Positions 1,879-57,037 of a stretch of DNA of 64,000 nucleotides are shown in pieces. Made by a program: the position numbers and the translations under genes. The stretch spans positions 8,556,001 through 8,620,000 of the forward strand of contig OX485804.1 in the NCBI GenBank assembly GCA_950295325.1, given 5' to 3'. The stretch is from Polytrichum commune. Lineage: Eukaryota; Streptophyta; Polytrichopsida; Polytrichales; Polytrichaceae. How positions within the stretch are numbered: the stretch's first letter is position 1; each line of letters begins with the position of its first letter. The notes beneath the pieces are model-generated. The model was not told the origin of the DNA. It did no database searches and saw only the letters and a program-made list of their open reading frames with translations.

Positions 1879-4262
1879 CTGTGTAGGTTAAGGTATGCTT
1901 TGTCAGGTTCGGGTGTGTCATAGCTGAGAATCTACACATTTCGGAATTCTCACTCCCGGAACATAGGCCCCTTTACATTGGAACTCGAACTTGCAATTTT
2001 CGAATTGGATTTGCCAAGCTTTCATCCAAAGCTCAACCAATCCTCAAGCTCTCAATAGTTTAAGCAAGTGTGAAGTAAGTATGCTCAAAGTGATATTTGA
2101 AGAGGGGAATGTATATAACAAAGAAGAATACATGACAAGCCAAAGAATGCTCGAAAGCCCATTGGACTTGCGGGCACACAAAACAAGAGCTCTAACTCTC
2201 GACATTCCCAAGCGACCTCCTGGGGTAGCTTAGGAATATGACCAAGGACTTGTCGATCCACATGGGACACTCATCAAGGCACCATCCTAAGTGTTGTGAG
2301 CCCGGCAAAAAGTTTGAGCTCTCAAATTGAAAGCTCAAGTGTATCTTAAGTTACAAGCAAGCACAAGCCACTGAGAAGGCTCCTTTCTTCGAGCTCTCAA
2401 CCCTCTAGTGTAAAGAGAGCCTTACTAAACAAGACCGTGCAGAAGACTGCATCACCAATCAAGTGATTTAAGGAAGATTGAGAATTCGCCAAGACCCATT
2501 TTCAATATCACTATGAAGGCTCCCACTCACATGGATGGTGAATTAGGTTTTCCAAAACCCCAGTGAATGCTTTCGAAGCTGAATTGATGTGCAACATGTG
2601 CCCTGAGGACCTACAATTCGAAATTCCTTGCCAAGAAGGCACAGAAACATCTTTACTCAATCTACTTATACTCGCCTGTAGGCAGCCGTGTGTTTGTTTG
2701 CAGGACTTGCGAGCTCGAGAAGATGCCACTCCCATTCTTAAGTCTTTCACAGATGTAAGGAGACCACATGGCCATCTGGATCTTGACCCATTTCCAGTAA
2801 AACTCTCTAACTCCTCTGGTGAACCTCATCACAAGTGTGCATGGAGCATGCAAGCCATTGAAAGGCATGTGAGTCAAGCATTTTGCACTCTTTGGCCCTC
2901 TTAGTGCACTAAAACAAAAATTCCCCCATCTTGTGTCCAGCAGCTACGAGGAAGAACGCTGCAGCGCTCTATGCCTATGTTTACCCATAACTATCTACAC
3001 AAGAATGTTATAATTCGATTGGAGCCAGTCGCACGACGAAAACGAAAACCATCCATAACACTCAGCTCTCTTTCTCTTGTAGCTCTGAGAAGAAATTTCC
3101 AAGAACCAAGCTCCTTGATCCTTGATTGCATGCATAGTCAAATGGCATCAAGCTCTGCCAAGTCTCGACCCACACGTCATTGTTGGCAATCTTCGGACAC
3201 AAACGAAGCCATCTCCCATCTACCACCAACATTCAATTGAAGAGAAGAGAAGAGAAGAGATGCGCCTCAAGTGGACTCAATCATTCTTAGGTTATCCGGA
3301 TTGCCTAAGAATTGCGCCGGAACCTAAGCACGCTACTTCAAGATGTGAAGCCAATCTCAACAAGGAAACACCGCACTAACTTAGACAAAGTGGAGAGATG
3401 CCACTTCCGAAGCCGACGATCCATCCAACGAAACGGAGGCACGAGTCTCGGCAAACTGCATCCCACTATAAATGATGTATTCCCAAAGCATCCTCCCCTA
3501 TCCAAACTCAGATTCCGAAACCTCACTCACCTCTGCTTGCCGCAGCTGCTTCTGCGACGACGGCGAGAAAGCTTCCACTTCCATTTTCCACACAAGAAGT
3601 GCCTCCACCCTCCACCACCGATCGCAAATCACAAAAACTCCCACCACCACCAACAACAACAACTATCCCCACAATCCCAACAACTTACGTAACTTTCTTG
3701 CCTGGAAAAGCTCCTGAAAACTCTCTACCTCAAATCACCGACCAAAGCTACTAAAAGCTACCTCAAATCTACCTCAAAGCTTATCAATCCTGTACCGCTA
3801 CTTTCAAGCGTGGGGCTGGCACAACAGCCAGGATTGGCAAGCAACTGAGTATCCTCCGAACTTATGAAGTTGGGTTGAGCTCGGGAACAGACTTGAGGAT
3901 TGTGGGTACTAAAATTGCGGAGTTGTGCGAAGGAGAGCAATGAAGGACGGCTGATGGCATGACCAAATTGTCGTTCTCCTTCCTGCTTCCTGATTTCGTT
4001 GCGTCCTGTGCGTCTTCGTCCCTGTCGTTCGGACTAAGCTCCTTGGTTAGTATGTTTCTTGCTGCGCAGTCTGGTCCATTTTGGTTTCCTTGGTTTCTGG
4101 CAGATTTGGAGCCCCGAGTTCCGGGGAGACCAGCCCCACTGTTCGGGGAGGGCCGGTATATTTGGGTCAGTGAGCCATTGAAGGGCTCCTTTTTGACGGG
4201 TCCACCTTCGCTTCAATTGACGGGTGGGTTACTTTCAATGTGACGGACAACATCACACACTA
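1879..4262. other. no gene recognised
   Basis: About 2.4 kb upstream of the left-edge gene. Open frames of 60-126 codons occur (for example 2563-2904 and 3312-3692), but none shows a known domain or convincing splice context. A CAC/CAA-rich stretch lies near 3640-3670 and a short GA-rich run (aagagaagagaagagaag) at 3240-3260. The 5' exons or promoter of the left gene could be here, but I cannot place them. Confidence 0.4.
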
Positions 4263-8838: not shown

Positions 8839-9332
8839 GGCCACATCACACATGAGACTGAGAGCCCGTGACACTTCAAGCACTCTCATTGGTGGAAAAG
8901 GCGGAGCCGGTCCAAGTTCGCTTCACATTACGCTTGAGGGTCCAACAAAGTATGGGAATGCAAGATGATGGATGTAAAGTCTACATGGATTTCTACGTGG
9001 CATCGAATGGATCATGTTTCATGGTCACTCGGACTATTTTCAAAAACCACCTCTTGGAAGTAGTCTTGGCACAAAACCGGGAGACCATGGCACTTCGAAT
9101 GCTCACAACCATTGATTTATTTGATTTTATCATGTGTGATGACTTGCATAATAAAAATTCATTAAAATAGCGTTTGGTTGAGGACCTGGTCACATATGAG
9201 TTCACACTACACTTGAGAGTCCGTGACCACACGACATGATTTTGGAGGTGTGGTAGGACGGCCTTTGGACACTTTCTTTTGGGCTCTCACAATTTCATGG
9301 TCACGGCTCTTGGCTCGTGTGTGAAGTGGCCC
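8839..9332 (+). mobile_element. Harbinger-type MITE, family A, copy 1
   Basis: Ends are GGGCCACATCACACATGAG and, inverted, GGGCCACTTCACACACGAG. Flanks are CGA on the left and TGA on the right, a decayed 3-bp TNA duplication. The 494-bp body closely resembles 44284-44806 and, inverted, 53112-53611, including the phrase CGTGGCATCGAATGGATC. It carries a 62-70 codon open frame shared with those two copies. No transposase is encoded; mobilisation by a PIF/Harbinger transposase is inferred from the ends. Confidence 0.85.
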
Positions 9333-9809
9333 TGATCTGTGCCTTAAGGAGGGATTTTGTTGTGGTTGTCCTCATTTTTCTTCTGGCAAATGCTTAATTT
9401 CTAATTTCTTCAAAGGGAAGGGAAGAGAGAGAGAGAAAAAAAGGACTTCGTAGTACACATCAAGAAACAAATGGAAGTATTATAATGAATGATTTAATTA
9501 ACTAAAAATATTTAAAAAAACTTAAAGTGGGAAATATAGCAATGAAGCTCGTGGACTTTGGAATAAGTCATACAATGATCATGGCTGCCACCGCCCGCAC
9601 CCTTTCTTGGAGTTTGTAACACAAGGCTACGGCATGTGCGAGTCTAGAGGAAATGATTGCATACATTCATTCATACCTCTCATTCATCCAACACAAACGC
9701 CCTAAAACAATATGTGAGTTGGATGTTATTATTTTTAAGATAAGTTGACACCAACTTTTAATCTCAATGACTCTAAATCACTTTAGTAGATCGCAATTTC
9801 AATGGCTTA
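9333..9809. other. no gene recognised
   Basis: Non-coding interval between two MITEs. It contains a short GA-rich run near 9420-9440 and a fragment near 9690 resembling the arm of the foldback element at 10182-10439. Confidence 0.4.
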
Positions 9810-12095: not shown

Positions 12096-12653
12096 TCAAC
12101 CATCTAACTCCACCTCTTCTAGTGATAATGCCCTACGCTTGTTGGTTCTTGTGCCAATTTTCCAAGATTCAAAAATACTATCCCAATCCATGAATTCAAC
12201 TCCTAACCCATTTAGACTAACCCTCATTAAAGCATCTAGTGTGTCAAGGTTGAGTCTAGTTCTCCTTTCACTCTTAACCCAATTTTGCTTTGAAAAACCA
12301 CGCTCACAAACAGCAGTGCTAGTTGGGATCACAAGTATGGCTTGCCATAGCGACATCCTAGTTGGCCAATTAATCATGAACTCCCGGTCATTGCCACAAA
12401 AAACCCAAGCTTCTTGCATACTTCGGCGTTCACAAACGGAACATAACATCTCCACGAATTCTAGCAATTCCGCGTTGCATTGATTAACAAGGTCATCGCT
12501 CCAACGGAAATGTGTCACCAACCGGTTCAACCATTGTTCCGTTAATGTCCCTCTGTCCAATTCATCTACGGGATAGTGCTTCGGGCTAAAAAGCCGGGCG
12601 GCATTGAAAATGGACAAGTCAGGGAATCGATCATTGAGTTGCATCAATTTGAT
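12096..12653 (-). pseudogene. hAT transposase, C-terminal dimerisation region
   Basis: A minus-strand frame of about 185 codons has the conserved end of the hAT transposase: WVFCGNDREF, WPTRMSLWQAILVIPTSTAV, CERGFSKQNWVKSERRTRLN and LDTLDALMRVSLNG. This is the hATC dimerisation domain (usually W..L..iPa.sv..ER.FS......r..l......l...l). The variant with 'PTSTAVCERGFS' is typical of a plant lineage related to ZNF862-like proteins. No ATG begins the frame, and the catalytic DDE/insertion region and BED zinc finger are absent upstream, in line with an internal deletion of the element. The frame itself has no stop over the conserved stretch. Confidence 0.85.
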
Positions 12654-12721
12654 CAACCTAATTCATCAATTTGATCGGTTGCATTCACAATAAGATGACG
12701 AAACCGGTCTCTGGCACAAGA

Positions 12722-26859: not shown

Positions 26860-27083
26860 TAATTTATGTGGGTGTTATTTGGTTTGTTTTTCATTGTCCT
26901 CCAACTTCTACTACTGATAAGATTTACACAACGAAACTTGTGTTGCATCAGCAAATCTACGATGAAACATCTAGAAAATCGGATTGGAAATCGAACCTCT
27001 CTTGATTCAGTTATGGTTATCAGGAGTGGGTGTTTGTTGATTCTTTAACATACATGGGTCCTCTCAATTATGTCCATTGTAAA
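26860..27083. repeat. dispersed repeat R1, copy a (left part, split by the Harbinger insertion)
   Basis: Contains CCTCCAACTTCTACTACTGA, AGCAAATCTACGATGAAACAT and CAGTTATGGTTATCAGGAG. The same order recurs at 55735-55975, 57540-57682 plus 58187-58410, and 58430-58620. The right part of this copy resumes at 30562. Nature unknown; no coding frame conserved. Confidence 0.65.
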
Positions 27084-27325
27084 GGGCCGCTTTACACAAG
27101 GAGTCGAGGCCATCAAAAGTTGGGGCCGTTTCAACCAAAATTTCAGCCCTAATGGCCCCAAGTTCGGCCTCAAGTGGTCATTTTAATAAGAGTATAACCG
27201 GGGCCAAGACTCTTGTGTGTAAAGGCCTTGGGGCCAAAGAGTCAAGACTATTGTATAAAGCCTTGAAAATTCCAGCCCATCTCCCTCTTTCTTCTTTGTC
27301 ATTTGCTCTTCTTGTTATTTTCAAG

Positions 27326-28672
27326 ATGGATGAGCATAGGCACAAGGTACTTGTGGCTCTTGTATTCTTCATGGCCATACGGCATGTTATGGCCGTTGTT
27401 GCAATATTGCAGCAACTAGCTTTGCACCAACATTATGGTGCTATGACAATGATGTTTGCGGTTATGGTGGGGGGGGAGTGGAGCTCGAAGGGGGGCACGG
27501 AGTGTTTGGATGGTTGATCGGAGGACCAATTTTATGGAGAGGCAATTATTGGGGAGCTATTCGACATATGCATTTAAGCAACATACAAGGTTACTTCCAG
27601 AGATTTTTGAATATTTGTGTGGTGTATTAGCTCCTTCATTAGTTCGATCAGATTCACACATGCGATTGGCCATTCCTATTCGAACTCGAGCTGCACTTTC
27701 ACTCAATAGGCTTTGTAGTGGAAATTCAATTAGCGGGTGTGCTGAAACGTATGGTATTCATGAAAGTACTGCTTCTATCATTGTTAGAGAATTTTGTACA
27801 ACAATTGACAAACATTTGAAACCATTAGTGATTGAAAAGCAATCAGCATCTATTTTGAGGAGAATGACAGCAGAGTTTGAGGCATTAAAGGGTATACCAT
27901 ATGTGATTGGGCCAATAGATGGAAGTCACATACCCATCATGGCACCTCCTATAGATCCCACCTCATATTATTGTAGGAAAGGCTATTATTCAGTTTTACT
28001 TCAAGGTATAGTTGATAGCAAATGTCGATTTTGGGACTATGACTTTGGATGGGCTGGCCGTTGTCACGATTGGACATTATTTCAAAATTCAGACATTGGT
28101 AAAAGGATAATGAGAGGCGAGTTATTACCCTATAAACTAATCGGTGATGCTGCTTATCCAATGAGACCATGGTTCTATTCACCTTTCAAAGGTGAAAATG
28201 AAGGGTTGCCTAGAGCAAAGTGTCACTGGAATTTCATTCAATCTTCTATAATAATGGTTGTGAAGAGGGCTTTTGGTATATTAAAAGGACGGTGGAGAAT
28301 TATTTGAAGAGAGTCGATATGCCTTTACGACATGTACCAAATCTAGTCACAACTTGTATATGCCTACATAATCTTTGTATCATTCACAAAAATAAATTTT
28401 ATTTGGATTGGGCAAAGGAGGGTGAGACACTGATGCAAAGAGAGAGTTTGGAGCGAATTGGACAGTTTGAGAAACCATACATTTTCATGGCAGCAGTGGA
28501 GGTTACCAAAGAAATGCGTCATTTATTGGGATTGGAAGAATACATTATACCTATAGAAACACTCGATGAACCTGATGACATCAATGACAAAGACACTCAA
28601 GAAACTGGAGACAAAGAAAAAGAGAGAAACAAGAGTGAAGAATATGTTGGTACAAGCTACCAAAACTCATGA
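27326..28672 (+). pseudogene. PIF/Harbinger transposase (HARBI1-type nuclease), frameshifted and with altered catalytic site
   Basis: The frame opens at ATG 27326 (MDEHRHKVLVALVFF). It shifts at an eight-G run near 27469-27476 into the frame holding the main domain, and shifts back near 28300, where one T seems lost just after the block GRWRII. The C-terminal part (LKRVDMPLRHVPNLVTTCIC, LHNLC) is in the first frame and ends at 28672. The DDE_Tnp_4 nuclease is clear: GPIDGSHIPI (Asp codon 27918), HDWTLFQNS, GDAAYPMRPW (Asp codon 28146) and VKRAFGILKGRW. In the last motif families have Glu (V-E-R-A-F-G); here the codon at 28263-28265 is AAG, Lys. Two single-base shifts plus loss of the catalytic acid make an active protein unlikely, yet the rest is well preserved. 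Confidence 0.92.
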
Positions 28673-28781
28673 ATTGATGGCAAATGCATTCTGGAAAGCA
28701 CATTTAAGGGGAGAAGGAAAAATATTCTTCCCCAAGCCATTATCTGATTCTTAAAAATACTAGAATATAAATCGTAGAACC

Positions 28782-28805
28782 TAGAGCCTAGAGCCTAGAG
28801 CCTAG
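28782..28805. repeat. 7-bp tandem repeat CCTAGAG
   Basis: CCTAGAG is repeated three times, followed by CCTAGAA, between the convergent ends of the two Harbinger genes. Confidence 0.8.
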
Positions 28806-30039
28806 AATTTGTCAATGAGTCTATTCATTTGCCGGTCTATCCTCTCCAATAAAGTACTGGTTTTCTCAAAATTCTTCACCATGATAGTGTTGTTCTCAAC
28901 CATTTGAGTAAAAAGACCAAAAGTTTGTTCCTAAAAACTCTACTTACCGCTCTTTAGTGATGAAGTTGGAGTTGGCTCTGAAATTTGGTCTTTCTCTGGT
29001 TTTTTGGTACTGTCTTCGATACAAGTAGAACCATTGGCAGATGCGGTGACATGCTTCATCACGGTACCTGTTTGATGCCACCATTGATCAAATACATCGT
29101 AAAATTTACATTCATGACGATCTGACCCGGAGACCCCATTCGCCATCTTATCAAGCCGGTATTGTTTATAAATGACATTGAATTTCTTTTTGCATGCCTT
29201 GGCAGTTCGGTTTAATCCAAGAATTACAACTACCATTCGTGCATGTAACTTCAACCAAACATCCACACCTGCACAATACATTAGGAACCCAAAAACATGT
29301 TAATGAAGTACATTTAGGCTTGAATTGACCTCTAAACTATGTTTTGTTTAGAAATTTCAGTAGTGATTTGTGTACAAAAACATAGTCATTGTGACTTTAT
29401 ACATCCAAAGTGAGGAAAGAATGATGGTGGCCCGTTGTATCCATAGTGCCTTGGCCTCGTGCATACGAGGTGCAAGGGTCAAATCCTCCCACCGCCACAC
29501 GGATTGATTTCCCCTCCCCTGGGGGAAAGGGGGGCTCGGAGGTGAGATTCCAAGGCCAAGGCTTTTGAAAGGCCCAATTGGCCTAATATAAAATCTGAAT
29601 TTTTTTTTTAAATTTTTTTTGAAAAATTTAGCACAACAAACAAATTCAACACACCTTGTTTTTTTGCATTATTGAGAAACTCGGGCTCCATCTCTCCACG
29701 CAATGCGATCATCACCTCAATATCGGCATCTTTCCAATGCTTCTTCTCTTCTTCAGTTTCTCCCTCCTTCTCCTTATTCATAATTTTCTTTGTCACCTTC
29801 TTTGTTGTTGTTTTCCTCTTCGGAGCATTAGGGGTGACAATCTGGACATCATCGTCTTCGTCATCTTGGACAACCTTCCTCTTCGAATGAGTCAACACCA
29901 TCTTTGAGATTGATGGCAGTGGGGGTGGAATAACATTTCCTACACTTGGCTGAAAAAATTGAGGCATTCCTACATGTTGCTGAAAAGAATGATTGTAGGC
30001 CTGAAATGCTTGTACTTCGGCACTATAATACATGTGCAT
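28802..30039 (-). pseudogene. Myb/SANT (trihelix)-like protein of the Harbinger element, two exons, C-terminal stops
   Basis: Exon 1 30039..29655 starts at the first ATG after an in-frame TAA and joins exon 2 from 29268 through a GT-AG intron (K-Q-G-V-D junction). Residues about 60-90 are basic (KRKTTTKKVTKKIMNKEKE), a possible nuclear signal. The trihelix-like domain then runs KKHWKDADIEVMIALRGEME across the junction to NRTAKACKKKFNVIYKQYR and FYDVFDQWWHQTG. In Harbinger elements such a protein binds the ends and helps nuclear import of the transposase. The frame stops at 28940, but in the same frame, after two TAG codons, a heptad-like tail (FTQMVENNTIMVKNFEKTST, LLERIDRQMNRLIDKF) continues to a stop at 28802. 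This suggests an originally longer protein now truncated. Confidence 0.85.
29427..29612 (+). mobile_element. probable tRNA-derived SINE in the intron of the Myb-like gene
   Basis: A GGTGGCCCGTTG start, a stem CCTCGT..ACGAGG and a box-B-like GGGTCAAATCC followed by TCCCACCGCCAC give a tRNA-like head of about 75 bp. Behind it come a C/G-rich body and a homopolymeric T/A end (29598-29620). It lies wholly inside the intron 29269-29654. The polymerase III box A is not well matched, so the call is tentative. Confidence 0.45.
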
Positions 30040-30561
30040 CGCCTCACACTCCGATTCATTCCAACCACGAACTTCTGAGGAACCCTCCTCTTAAAGCAAA
30101 AAAAAAAACAAAAAAAAAACAACAACAACAATAACAACAACAATCGCATACGAGAACAACAATCAAACAAGCCAAAGAATGTGCTATGAGTGAAGTGAGA
30201 GAGATAGAGAATGATGAGAAGAGAAGAAGATAAAAGAAAGAATAGACCAAGAAGAGCCGTTCAGATTTCTAATCCATCCTCCGGTGCTGATCTCTTGTCA
30301 AAATAATATTTTAATGAAAAAATCATTTTTAATGAAATTTGACAACAGCCCCAAGACAACGAATTGGCCTTCCATTCTCGGCGGACCCAATTCTTGGAGT
30401 TGGGGCCATGTCAGATCTTGTCGTTTAAACATTAAAATAATTTTCCTACTTTCGGTTTTGACTCCTTGTGTAAAGGCCTTCGGGCTGATTTCATAAATTC
30501 AACCAATGGGCAACAAGGATTTGGCTTCAAAACGGCCTTGACTCCTTGTATAAAGCGGCCC

Positions 30562-30930
30562 TAAGTGTAGAGCATTGTATCATCTCTATCACATTGGCTA
30601 TTTATGGGTAAGTAAGTATTATGTATATTTTTTATTCGACAATCTTGGATCTAAAGGAAAAATAAACAATCTTGTATTATTTTCTATATTTTAAATATAT
30701 AATTTCTGAATATTTTTTATTTTCCTACGAATAATAATTAGTATTGAGGTGATAAAGGCACTACTGTAGTTATTAACATTTGAAGATGTAGCCTAATCTC
30801 TTTTAAACATGTGTTTTCGTGATGTTTGGTCTTTAATCCTTACTAAACCACATATATACCAATCAAATGTAGGGGTCCGATTAAGAAATTGAGCCATTTT
30901 AGAACCATCTACCTTAATCGGTCAAAACCC
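30562..30930. repeat. dispersed repeat R1, copy a (right part)
   Basis: Resumes after the Harbinger element with TAAGTGTAGAGCATTG and later GAAGATGTAGCCTAATCTCTTTTAAACATG and AATGTAGGGGTCCGATTAAGAAA. These match 58268-58410 and 58520-58600, where no element intervenes. Confidence 0.65.
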
Positions 30931-42851: not shown

Positions 42852-43409
42852 GGGCCGCTTCACACGATGGCCGGAGGTCGAGAGGGCGTCGATTTCCACC
42901 AATGTTCAAATGGAAAGAATTCAAGAATTTGGCCTCTGGACCCTTTCACACTAGAGGCCAAAGTTCAAATGATGTCGCTCTCCAAAATGCCTACATGACA
43001 AGACTTTTTGACCAAGGCGACGGACTCTCGAAGGAAGTTCGGGTCGGACATGGATGGAAACCCAAACTATGGTCGAGAGGCCGTCGATTTTTTGCATGAA
43101 AAGAGTAAAAAAATTTACAATATCTTGGCCGTTAGGTTGGAGGGGTTGTTTTGGGCAGGGAATAAAGTGGGATGCTCCTTCTTCCTCTAGACTTTGGGCT
43201 TGGCCTTTGGAGGCTTCACACTATGGCCGTCCAAGTCGAGAGGCCGTGGGAGTTCATGGCCAAAGGTTTGGACTTTGGAAGCTTCACACTATGCCTGGCC
43301 GAAGGCTCCAATTCATGTATTTTCAGCCCATTTCTTTGGACTCTCAACAAAATTTGGCCATTCAATCCCACGGCCTCTTGACTTGGATGGCCATAGGGTG
43401 AAGCGGCCC
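42852..43409. mobile_element. Harbinger-type MITE, family C, copy 1
   Basis: Perfect TAA duplication (42849-42851 and 43410-43412). The ends are GGGCCGCTTCACACGATGGC and, inverted, GGGCCGCTTCACCCTATGGC. The body is shared with 56469-56961: GAAGGAAGTTCGGGTCGGAC, TGGCCGTTAGGTTGGAGGGG and GATGCTCCTTCTTC. No transposase. Frames of up to 115 codons within it are not alike in the other copy beyond nucleotide similarity. Confidence 0.92.
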
Positions 43410-43412
43410 TAA

Positions 43413-44283
43413 GAACGAACTAACCTTAAACTTAAAGGACACTTGTTTTTACTACCTATTTATTGAGGAAAGTGGCATCTTTGAGGCAATGAGAGTTTAC
43501 TCAAACTGTTCTGACATTGTCAAAATAAAAATTAATGCAATTGTGGTGGTGAATGAAACTAAGGTTGGAAATTGACACTTTGATTGTGTCTTGTTCCTGG
43601 CTTGTTTAGCCACTAATTTTTTTTAAATAAAACAGAATTGGAAACTTAGTTCCAATCACCACATGCAACGATTTTTTAGCAAGAGCGAACAATGGCTTGC
43701 TCGAGGGTATCAACTGGGTGACCGTCGAGAGCACCCTCCCCTCCGATGCTCACTTCCACATATTTAAATTGTGTATGTCACCTATTCTCATTTTTAAGGG
43801 GAGGATTATGCAAAACTTCATGTAGAGGGGACCCCATCATAAACCTCACATCCCAGGGTGGCAATAGCTGGGATATATTGCAGGAGTCCTTGGATAATAA
43901 GACCATTTGAGAGCTGATAATAACTTTATAAAATTTTAAAACATGTTTAACCCAAAGGTTAATATGAACATATATATATATATATATATATCAACCACAT
44001 AGCCATGTGTATGTACGATAGCTTAAAGTGTTGGTTTGAGCACCCTCTACCTTAGCCTCATCTAGCATAGCATCCAACATCCTCAATCTCTAGTGTCCTT
44101 GTGCACCTACAGAGCGCCTGCCGGGAAGACTTTTGAGCTGTGGCGTAAAGCAAGTTAGTAATGATCAGAGTGTCCAGGCCCAAGGGAAACACACAGGAGC
44201 TGCCCAGCTTATAACATGATAGCTTCCGGTTTTAGCCTTTTCCTTGGCCTCTTTCTCTCTCCACCACCACCACCACCAACTTA
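43413..44283. other. no gene recognised; ends in a CAC microsatellite
   Basis: AT-rich, with an (AT)n run at 43970-43991. A (CAC)n run at 44263-44277 lies six bases before the next MITE. Confidence 0.4.
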
Positions 44284-44806
44284 GGGCCACTTCACACACG
44301 AGACTGAGAGCCCGTGACTATTACACTTCAAGCACTCTCGTTGGTGGGAAAAGGTGGAGCCGGTCCAAGTTCGCTACTTCACACTCCGCTTGAGGGACCA
44401 ACGGAGTATACAAGTGAATGCAAGATGGATGTGAAGCCTGCATGGATTCCTACGTGGCATCGAATGGATCGTGGTTCACGGTCACTTGGACTATTCTCAA
44501 AAACCACCTATTGCAGGTAGGTTCAACGCAAAACCAGAAGACCATGCCACTCCGAACGCTCACCACCGTTGATTTATTCTATTTTTTTTTAATCATGTGT
44601 GAAGACCTGTATGAATAGAAATTCATTGAGATAGCATTTGGTTGAGGACCCGGTCACATATGACTTCAGAATTCACTTAAGAGTCCGTGACCACACTACA
44701 TCACATGATGTTGGAGGTGTGTTGGGATGGCCTTTGGACACTTTCTTTTGGGCTCTCACAATATATCGTGGTCATGGCTCTTGGCTCGTGTGTGAAGAAG
44801 TGGCCC
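44284..44806 (+). mobile_element. Harbinger-type MITE, family A, copy 2
   Basis: The left end is GGGCCACTTCACACACGAGA; inverted right end GGGCCACTTCTTCACACACG, with a 3-bp insertion. Flanks TTA and TAA fit a TNA site with one change. The body is colinear with 8839-9332 and 53112-53611 (CGTGGCATCGAATGGATCGT; CCTTTGGACACTTTCTTTTGG). A 66-codon open frame (44418-44618) matches the frames in those copies. Confidence 0.9.
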
Positions 44807-53000: not shown

Positions 53001-53111
53001 ATTCATAATGTCAGGCTCATGCCATGTTCGTCTCATGTCATAACTTAACTTCACTTGTTAAACCTCCTCATTTGCTGGCGTTGTACTTATAACACTAAAA
53101 TATCGTACTCA
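50080..53111. other. no gene recognised
   Basis: A C-rich segment at 50500-50760 gives overlapping frames in all three plus frames (for example 50542-50853), none with recognisable content. From 50760 to 53110 the sequence is AT-rich and without a supported feature. Confidence 0.4.
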
Positions 53112-53611
53112 GGGCCACTTCACACACGAGCCAAGTCCCGTGACCATGAAATTGTGAGAGACCAAAAGAAAGTGTCCAAAGGCCGTCCCAACATGCCTCC
53201 AAAATCATGTAGTGTGGTCACGGACCCTCAAGTGTGCCTTGAAGTCATATGTGATTGGGCCCTCAACCAAATGCTATTTCAATGAGTTTCAATTCATGTG
53301 AGGTCCTCATGTATGATCAAACAAAACAAATCAATAGTTCTGAGGTTTCGGAGTGCCATGATCTCCCGGTTTCGTGTAAGGTCTACCTTCAAGACGTGGT
53401 TTTTGAGAATAGTCCAAGTGACCGTGAAACATGATCCATTCGATGCCATGTAGGAATCCATGTAGACTTCACATCCATCTTGCATTCACATACTCTATTG
53501 GTCCCTCAAGTGTAGTACGAAGCGAACTTGGACCAGCTCCGCCTTCTCCACCAATGAGAGTGTTGGAAGTGTAATGATCACGGGCTCTTAGTCTTGTGTG
53601 TGAAGTGGCCC
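53112..53611 (-). mobile_element. Harbinger-type MITE, family A, copy 3 (inverted)
   Basis: Perfect TCA duplication (53109-53111, 53612-53614). Ends are GGGCCACTTCACACACGAGC and, inverted, GGGCCACTTCACACACAAGA. The body is family A in opposite orientation, including CCAAAAGAAAGTGTCCAAAG and, antisense, the CATCGAATGGATCATGTTTC phrase. The 63-codon minus frame 53294-53485 corresponds to the frames at 8868-9170 and 44418-44618. Confidence 0.93.
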
Positions 53612-53614
53612 TCA

Positions 53615-56229: not shown

Positions 56230-57037
56230 AACTTTTCGGATGACACTCCTTATGAATAAGTGAAGAAATATTGCCACGGATGATGGACGAGTTCATCCAT
56301 TGGCCAAAACCCTACCTTCTCTCGCCAACAACTTGTGATGAAATACTGTCATGGATGATTGAAACCTGGATGACAAACCACTTGGTAAGTGATAGTTTTT
56401 ATTTTATTTTTATTTTTATTATTTTTATTTTTTACAATGAGTGACAAACAACATTGGGTTAACAGTTAGGGCTGCTTCACACTATGGCCGAAGGTCGAGA
56501 GACTGTTGATTTCCACCAATTAGGTTGCAAGAAACCAAGAATTCAGCCTCTCGACCCTTCACACTAAGGCGAAAGTTCAAAGGTTGTTGCAATTTAATCT
56601 GCTTACTTTTTTACGAAGGCGACGGACTCTCAAAGGAAGTTTGGGTTAGACGGGAATGAAAACCCAAACTATTGTTGAGAGGCCATCGGTTTTATTTCAT
56701 TAAAAAAATCAATCATTGACAAGATCTTGGCCGTTAGATTCGAGGGGTTGTTTTGGGCAAGGAATAAAGCAAGATGCTCCTTCTTCGTTTGAACTATGGG
56801 TTTGGCCTTTGAAGGCTTCACACCATGTCCGACCAAAGGCTCCAATTCCTATATATGTTGTTGGTCGACTAATTTCAGCCCAATTCTTTGGACTCTCCAC
56901 AAAGTTGGGCCATTCAATCCCACGGCCTCTCGACTTGGACGGCCATAGTGTGAAGCGGCCCTTAGTGATGGTGACACTACATCACAGATTACGATTCGTA
57001 TTGAGCCTGACAAGGGGGATTGGTGACACTGAATACC
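56230..57037. mobile_element. MITE with CACTAA ends (family E, copy 3), interrupted by a family C MITE
   Basis: 56236-56390 follows copy 1 closely (GATGAGTTCATCCATTGGCC counterpart; CCTACCTTCTCTCGCCAACA; TTGTGATGAAATACTGTCAT; CACTTGGTAAGTGATAG). After the inserted element, 56962-57037 resumes the copy 1 order 'ttagtgatggtgacactacatcac' to ACTAGTG. The left terminus is not preserved. Confidence 0.7.
56469..56961. mobile_element. Harbinger-type MITE, family C, copy 2, nested in a family E MITE
   Basis: Perfect TTA duplication (56466-56468, 56962-56964). Ends are GGGCTGCTTCACACTATGGC and, inverted, GGGCCGCTTCACACTATGGC. The interior is colinear with 42852-43409. The target is exactly the 'acatTTAgtgttggtga' site that is uninterrupted at 6248-6260. 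Confidence 0.94.

Follow-up and report, generated by a model that had tools for sequence, protein, structure and literature searches.

A Two-Gene PIF/Harbinger Element, Its Broken Copies, and Two Sets of Near-Identical Miniature Elements in One Genome

Is the two-gene transposon at positions 27084 to 30561 of the DNA studied here a master that fell silent recently, or one of several decayed copies whose short relatives are moved by another enzyme? The DNA is a 64-kb stretch (the window; G000:C2:8556001-8620000) of a 407.8-Mb assembly in 64 contigs, and its host is probably a plant, judging from the domains (Plant_tran) and the relatives of the encoded proteins. A sequence-only reading, made before the work reported here, had called the element a family master that was only slightly broken and recently inactivated. 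We present here an analysis of this 3,478-bp PIF/Harbinger element, which has exact borders and two genes between terminal inverted repeats (TIRs). With high confidence, we regard it as one of nine near-full-length two-gene copies, all with a broken transposase, which working masters likely made and which decayed after landing.

The 28-bp TIRs, already recognized in the sequence-only reading, lie at 27084-27111 (plus strand) and 30534-30561 (minus strand) and pair at 26 of 28 positions. When as many as three mismatches are allowed, their pattern is found at two places in the window, against an expectation of 0.00 and no occurrence in 100 shuffles. The first bases are GGGCCGCTTTACAC, and the ends are of the PIF/Harbinger kind. 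Published sources are cited here by PMC number from the parts that were available, and statements resting on them hold for those parts; there, PIF/Harbinger TIRs mostly start with A or G (PMC4482050). The plant TIR motif G(N)5GTT is absent, as the TIR reads GGGCCGCTT, with C instead of G at position 7; that motif was the search criterion of one study and does not define the superfamily (PMC2213677). An inner TIR motif, TTGTRTAAAG, has five matches in the window, four of them in the element's ends (0.51 expected across the whole 64 kb), including subterminal repeats at 27251-27260 and 30466-30475 (both plus strand); its recurrence inside both ends is as would be expected for repeated binding sites. 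The flanking triplets are AAA on the left (27081-27083) and TAA on the right (30562-30564), so the target-site repeat is imperfect in the window copy. The TWA repeat (TAA or TTA on both sides) is perfect in all 14 other copies with two ends read (L010-L017 and L021-L026; L014 was judged by eye, L018 was read on one side, and L019 and L020 were unread). The genes run tail to tail, as had been claimed, with the transposase in the left half and a Myb/trihelix gene on the opposite strand in the right half. By anatomy, target site, and domains, the element is PIF/Harbinger.

The transposase gene (27326-28754, plus strand) has no intron and ends with TAA at 28752-28754, one codon ahead of the stop in the other copies. 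Its identification as a DDE transposase holds: it matches DDE_Tnp_4 (PF13359) with 73.7 bits (E 1.7e-20), while its uninterrupted relative P0001 scores 99.6 bits. A sequence search of PDB gave no matches up to an E of 1. Among 120 listed of 200 relatives found, the catalytic residues D, D, and E are retained in 119 of 120, 112 of 112, and 101 of 105 covering sequences, respectively. Both Asp codons are kept in the window (27918-27920 and 28146-28148, plus strand), and the third position (28263-28265, plus strand) is AAG, for Lys, where each of the eight other near-full-length copies has a Glu codon. Three frame breaks interrupt the gene: a run of eight G (27469-27476; seven G in all eight other copies), a site at 28300-28304 (about 28302) that is one base short of all eight, and a site between 28605 and 28606 that is two bases short of all eight. 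The two compensating shifts of the sequence-only reading are thus real, at 27469-27476 and about 28302, and the third break, near 28605, makes that account incomplete. The start of the protein (27326-27470) forms a long, strongly hydrophobic helix that is retained in most of the eight aligned relatives.

The Myb/trihelix partner, likewise proposed earlier, is encoded on the minus strand in two exons, 29655-30088 and 28802-29268, the second with a coiled-coil-like tail. They are separated by a 386-bp GT...AG intron (29269-29654, minus strand), which had been overlooked and into which relatives also read. Joined at the inferred splice sites, the exons match PF13837 (Myb_DNA-bind_4) with 47.5 bits (E 2.5e-12; cut-off 27), so that the second gene codes for a Myb/SANT-type DNA-binding protein, as in PIF/Harbinger elements. 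Two TAG codons claimed in this frame are present on the minus strand, and both are absent from all eight other copies. The one at 28940-28942 stands where 26 of 44 relatives have Lys (14 are gapped; 26 of 30 covering), and the one at 28931-28933 stands where 20 have Gln and 7 have His (15 gapped; Gln in 20 of 29 covering). The start codon of exon 1 is lost through a one-base gap at 30088/30089. This loss, the third frame break, and the catalytic Glu-to-Lys codon had escaped notice. Seven disabling lesions, the catalytic Glu among them, lend no support to the description "only slightly broken."

Copies were sought in the whole assembly, and their counts are lower bounds, as only part of the candidates was scored. 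With the left 200 bp as query, 158 candidates were obtained and 40 matches scored; identity was 95-100% in 12 of these (window included), 90-94% in 6, and 69-75% in 22. Among the best 18, which were read, nine are near full length (L009, which is the window copy, L010-L015, L017, and L018), with pairwise identities of 91.9-96.8%. L011 has an insertion of 527 bp and a 426-bp deletion, and L018 an insertion of 616 bp; L016 is a 968-bp derivative, and L019 and L020 are interrupted or cut. A search with the transposase (137 of 1,614 candidates scored) added one member to the window's family, L053 (87%, two stops), in which element ends were looked for and none were found. The window copy shares its ends with the eight other near-full-length copies. 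No relatives were confirmed in viral contigs or in contigs of prokaryote genomes. In six cases the longest contigs with transposase and Myb relatives are of equal size, which hints at linkage that is unconfirmed.

Of the window copy's lesions, the frame breaks (all three), the Lys codon, and both TAG codons are absent from the eight other near-full-length copies, so each lesion likely arose in the window copy. L010 has lost the Myb start as well, by another change. None of the nine copies has an unbroken transposase, so nothing singles out the window copy as the master. In L015 both Myb exons are free of stops, but the transposase has one. Internal transposase stops of the other copies fall at 16 sites, 14 of which are confined to one copy; this count omits aligned pieces below 80% identity (the window's among them), and a stop at 488 in five copies is taken to be the natural end. 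Transposase variants among the nine copies show a nonsynonymous-to-synonymous ratio (N/S) of 165/47 (3.51) when private to one copy and 35/26 (1.35) when shared by two or more (Fisher p 0.0028). The private ratio is close to a neutral expectation of 3.11, derived from chosen C>T-rich weights, and the shared changes look constrained. The contrast holds without C>T/G>A changes (shared 9/8, private 63/11; p 0.0067) and when each copy is left out in turn (p 0.0007 to 0.041). It recurs in a sister family, whose transposases are 69-77% identical in protein to that of the window (19 of 21 copies, two being omitted with an unrecognized end): N/S is 4.32 for private changes, 2.61 for those shared by two copies, and 1.88 for those shared by three or more (p 0.0019, shared against private).

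Shared changes are also unevenly placed along the element. Per 100 bp, shared-variant columns number 1.1 in the left end, 3.3 in the right end, 4.8 and 6.2 in the Myb exons, 1.1, 3.8, and 7.9 from the start to the end of the transposase, and 14.0 and 14.8 in the intron and spacer. Private changes vary little by region in the near-full-length copies (1.2-2.8 per 100 bp). Near-neutral private changes together with constrained shared ones make it likely that working masters gave rise to the copies and that decay followed once these had landed. On the simplest reading, selection maintained the ends and coding parts of the source elements while these spread, and each copy then decayed freely. Some shared stops weigh against this: one at Glu406 is common to three copies, one at Trp311 to two, and three further pairs lie in the Myb exons. 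Such stops would suit a copy that landed already broken, mobilized in trans as a nonautonomous passenger, and the multiplication of gene-less short derivatives, described below, suggests that elements are indeed moved in trans in this genome. A passenger would not, however, account for lesions that no other near-full-length copy has, or for private changes near neutrality beside constrained shared ones, and we consider it improbable. Decay of the window copy after landing, from a working master, is the account that we carry forward.

When this decay began can be estimated only roughly. In a protein tree of 90 relatives and the window, the window's branch is 0.064, about seven times the 0.009 of P0001, although branches of other relatives in the same clade reach 0.12 and several equal or exceed the window's. 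Polarized amino acid differences between the window and P0001 fall on the window side in 25 of 30 cases (p 0.0003), with 17 more unpolarized. Protein distance to P0001 was considered as a sign of great age and dropped, own-genome copies being the better measure. Neutral rates are about 6.5e-9 to 1.3e-8 per site per year; on these, the near-full-length copies would be very roughly 1-4 million years old and the miniature elements described below less than 1 million, again very roughly. Alignment of the copies, proposed in the sequence-only reading as a means of dating the lesions, did place them as private to the window copy; the claim of recent inactivation is not supported, in view of the seven lesions and the window's branch.

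Short single-base runs (the G8 and a T run at 28302), which are error prone in sequencing, contain or adjoin two of the three frame breaks, so the lesions might be assembly errors in a copy that is intact and active. The same would then have to hold for the Lys codon, both TAG codons, the two-base gap, and the loss of the Myb start; the differences from P0001 noted above lie mostly on the window side, and the target-site repeat is damaged. We therefore give assembly error very little credence. Less credible still is a domesticated, ALP1-like host gene derived from a Harbinger transposase. Genes of that sort with altered DDE triads exist in plant genomes (PMC4671723), but this locus has both TIRs, several of its copies have target-site repeats, and the frame is broken in nine of nine.

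If the near-full-length copies are dead, has anything of this family moved lately? Six short elements, L021-L026, are 542-545 bp (543-bp) deletion derivatives that join positions 1-177 and 3114-3478 of the window element. L022-L026 are 99-100% identical to one another, and L021 is 92% like those. Having the two ends of a coding master, and target repeats that match in six of six, they are miniature inverted-repeat transposable elements (MITEs) of the Tourist type. The left border of L025 abuts the right end (GCGGCCC) of a similar element, with a single TAA between them.

The second set, a 533-bp element (L027-L040, n=14; 514 and 532 bp in two), has the ends GGGCCGCTTTACACCTAGAGGCCGGG and is 98-100% identical. 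Its target triplets match in 14 of 14, 12 being TAA or TTA, one TCA, and one TGA; the last two, in L038 and L040, read TCA/TCA and TGA/TGA instead of TAA or TTA. Besides these 14, the 20 places read for this element include L041, L043, and L046, which resemble it or each other at 86-91%, the more distant L044 and L045, and L042, in which no right end was found. Derivation by plain deletion from the sister-family copy L054 was examined and rejected, as positions 1-176 match at 96.6%, 214-533 match at 87.3%, and 177-213 are unmatched. Private changes per 100 bp number 0.33 and 0.50 in the two miniature sets, several-fold below the near-full-length copies. Their near-identity makes it likely that they moved recently.

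At their left ends the sister-family copies match the 533-bp element, and the sister family has the 14-bp end GGGCCGCTTTACAC in common with the window's family. In one of its 21 copies read with flanks, the transposase frame is open all the way from Met to C terminus, with D, D, and E present; this copy is 3,426 bp long, has TAA on both sides, and has an open Myb exon 2 and an apparent break in exon 1. No intact transposase was found in the window's own family among the scored candidates, and in neither family did any copy that was read have both genes open. The genome search suggested in the sequence-only reading, for intact copies with the same ends, thus returned copies, none of which, among those scored, is intact in the window's family; the one transposase frame seen to be open over its full length is in the sister family. 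Its further suggestion that active relatives may exist gains support from that open frame and from the miniature elements that are 98-100% identical.

The short offspring of the window's family likely moved in trans, and the 533-bp element would have been moved in trans by the sister family whose ends it carries. Tentatively, the Harbinger system may be active, or may have been so until lately: the window's family, without a transposase of its own, could have 543-bp offspring that still jump, mobilized through the shared 14-bp end by the sister family's transposase and Myb protein, and the same proteins could drive the 533-bp burst. We offer this as a possibility somewhat short of an even chance. 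If it is true, two master families share one live enzyme, and the ends and the partner protein decide what moves.

By analogy with known elements, the Myb partner (ORF1) would bind the element ends and recruit the transposase, and the DDE transposase would excise the element and insert it at TWA. Such a division of labor, with the Myb protein on the ends and the DDE protein cutting and joining, is described for elements of this kind (PMC2836001, PMC9921582). Both proteins presumably acted in this way here, and the window copy is now likely inert.

The Myb intron holds a GC-rich, possibly SINE-like (short interspersed nuclear element) block at 29421-29600 (plus strand). Each of the nine near-full-length copies has it, L011 only half of it, and it recurs in the corresponding intron of relatives P0166, P0168, P0174, P0188, P0191, and P0194. 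P0191 is only 43-49% alike in exon 1 yet has the block, which has therefore likely been carried along for a long time. Compared with the window, the block is 79-86% alike between copies and its intron flank is 88-94% alike. The SINE reading, unproven, is our assumption from what we take to be box A and B motifs. Rfam searches of the block at E up to 5 gave seven weak unrelated matches and no tRNA, its RNA fold is no better than those of shuffles (z -0.76 and -0.63), and no direct repeats longer than 6 bases were found around the block. Across the window, Rfam at the gathering score and ARAGORN each gave no matches.

Other repeats were noticed in the window and the genome. Two more miniature elements, at 42852-43409 and 56469-56961, are 78% alike, with the ends GGGC(C/T)GCTTCACAC..., target repeats TAA and TTA, and inner copies of their own end motif. 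Seven places in G000 (C4:806215, C4:33684302, C5:49983305, C1:9513485, C2:24203378, C4:30207779, and C5:29722354) encode proteins about 50% alike to the window transposase, in frames that are free of stops and all exactly 468 amino acids long; they are perhaps another young Harbinger family. A dispersed repeat has three copies in the window (8871-9335, 44283-44762, and 53109-53612), which are about 83-90% alike and lie in both orientations. An open frame at 12099-12662 (minus strand) resembles what we take to be the end of a hAT-type transposase.

Among known systems, the window element is close in kind to Ping/Pong with mPing and to Jing with mJing, all of rice, and in structure to MtPH, PePIF1, and Pifvine. 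The two Ping genes point in the same direction, whereas the window's Myb gene lies downstream of the transposase in the opposite direction; the TIR here is 28 bp long and starts with GGGCCGCTTTACAC, and the likeness to Ping/Pong drawn here is one of description. Ping/Pong and mPing likewise combine a Myb-like ORF1 with a DDE transposase and a TAA target repeat, have short derivatives moved in trans, and include related masters that cross-mobilize (PMC2836001, PMC9921582). Jing, a 3,608-bp master, has a TAA target repeat and Myb-like and DDE domains, and mJing may borrow the transposase of a related master; both domains of Jing are, however, annotated in one reading frame, and its 11-bp TIR has another sequence (PMC6850418). 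MtPH of Medicago and PePIF1 of Phalaenopsis resemble the window element in having a transposase and orf1 within TIRs of 12-22 bp, 3-bp target repeats (TAA/TTA), and internally deleted derivatives (PMC2213677, PMC6327408), and ORF1 of PePIF1 also has two exons (PMC6327408). Unlike the window's, their transposases contain introns in the entries examined, and the PePIF1 genes stand head to tail. Pifvine of grapevine is likewise a multicopy two-gene PIF, with TIRs of 20-35 bp, mostly TAA/TTA targets, and some intact frames, but is 5 to 7.2 kb long (PMC2528002). Tail-to-tail order is not described in the available parts of the literature compared, and we claim no priority for it; nothing further on point was noticed there on gene order, SINEs in Harbinger elements, or MITE bursts. 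The window element's own traits are its intron-free transposase, its tail-to-tail genes, and the unusual start of its TIR. It is of a common kind, yet its copy set is a good test bed: one genome holds masters that have died, the sister family, in which one transposase frame is open, and two near-identical miniature sets. With this set, one can study which ends are moved by which enzyme once a master is dead, a question on which the experiments in the literature compared used the rice elements Ping, Pong, and Jing.
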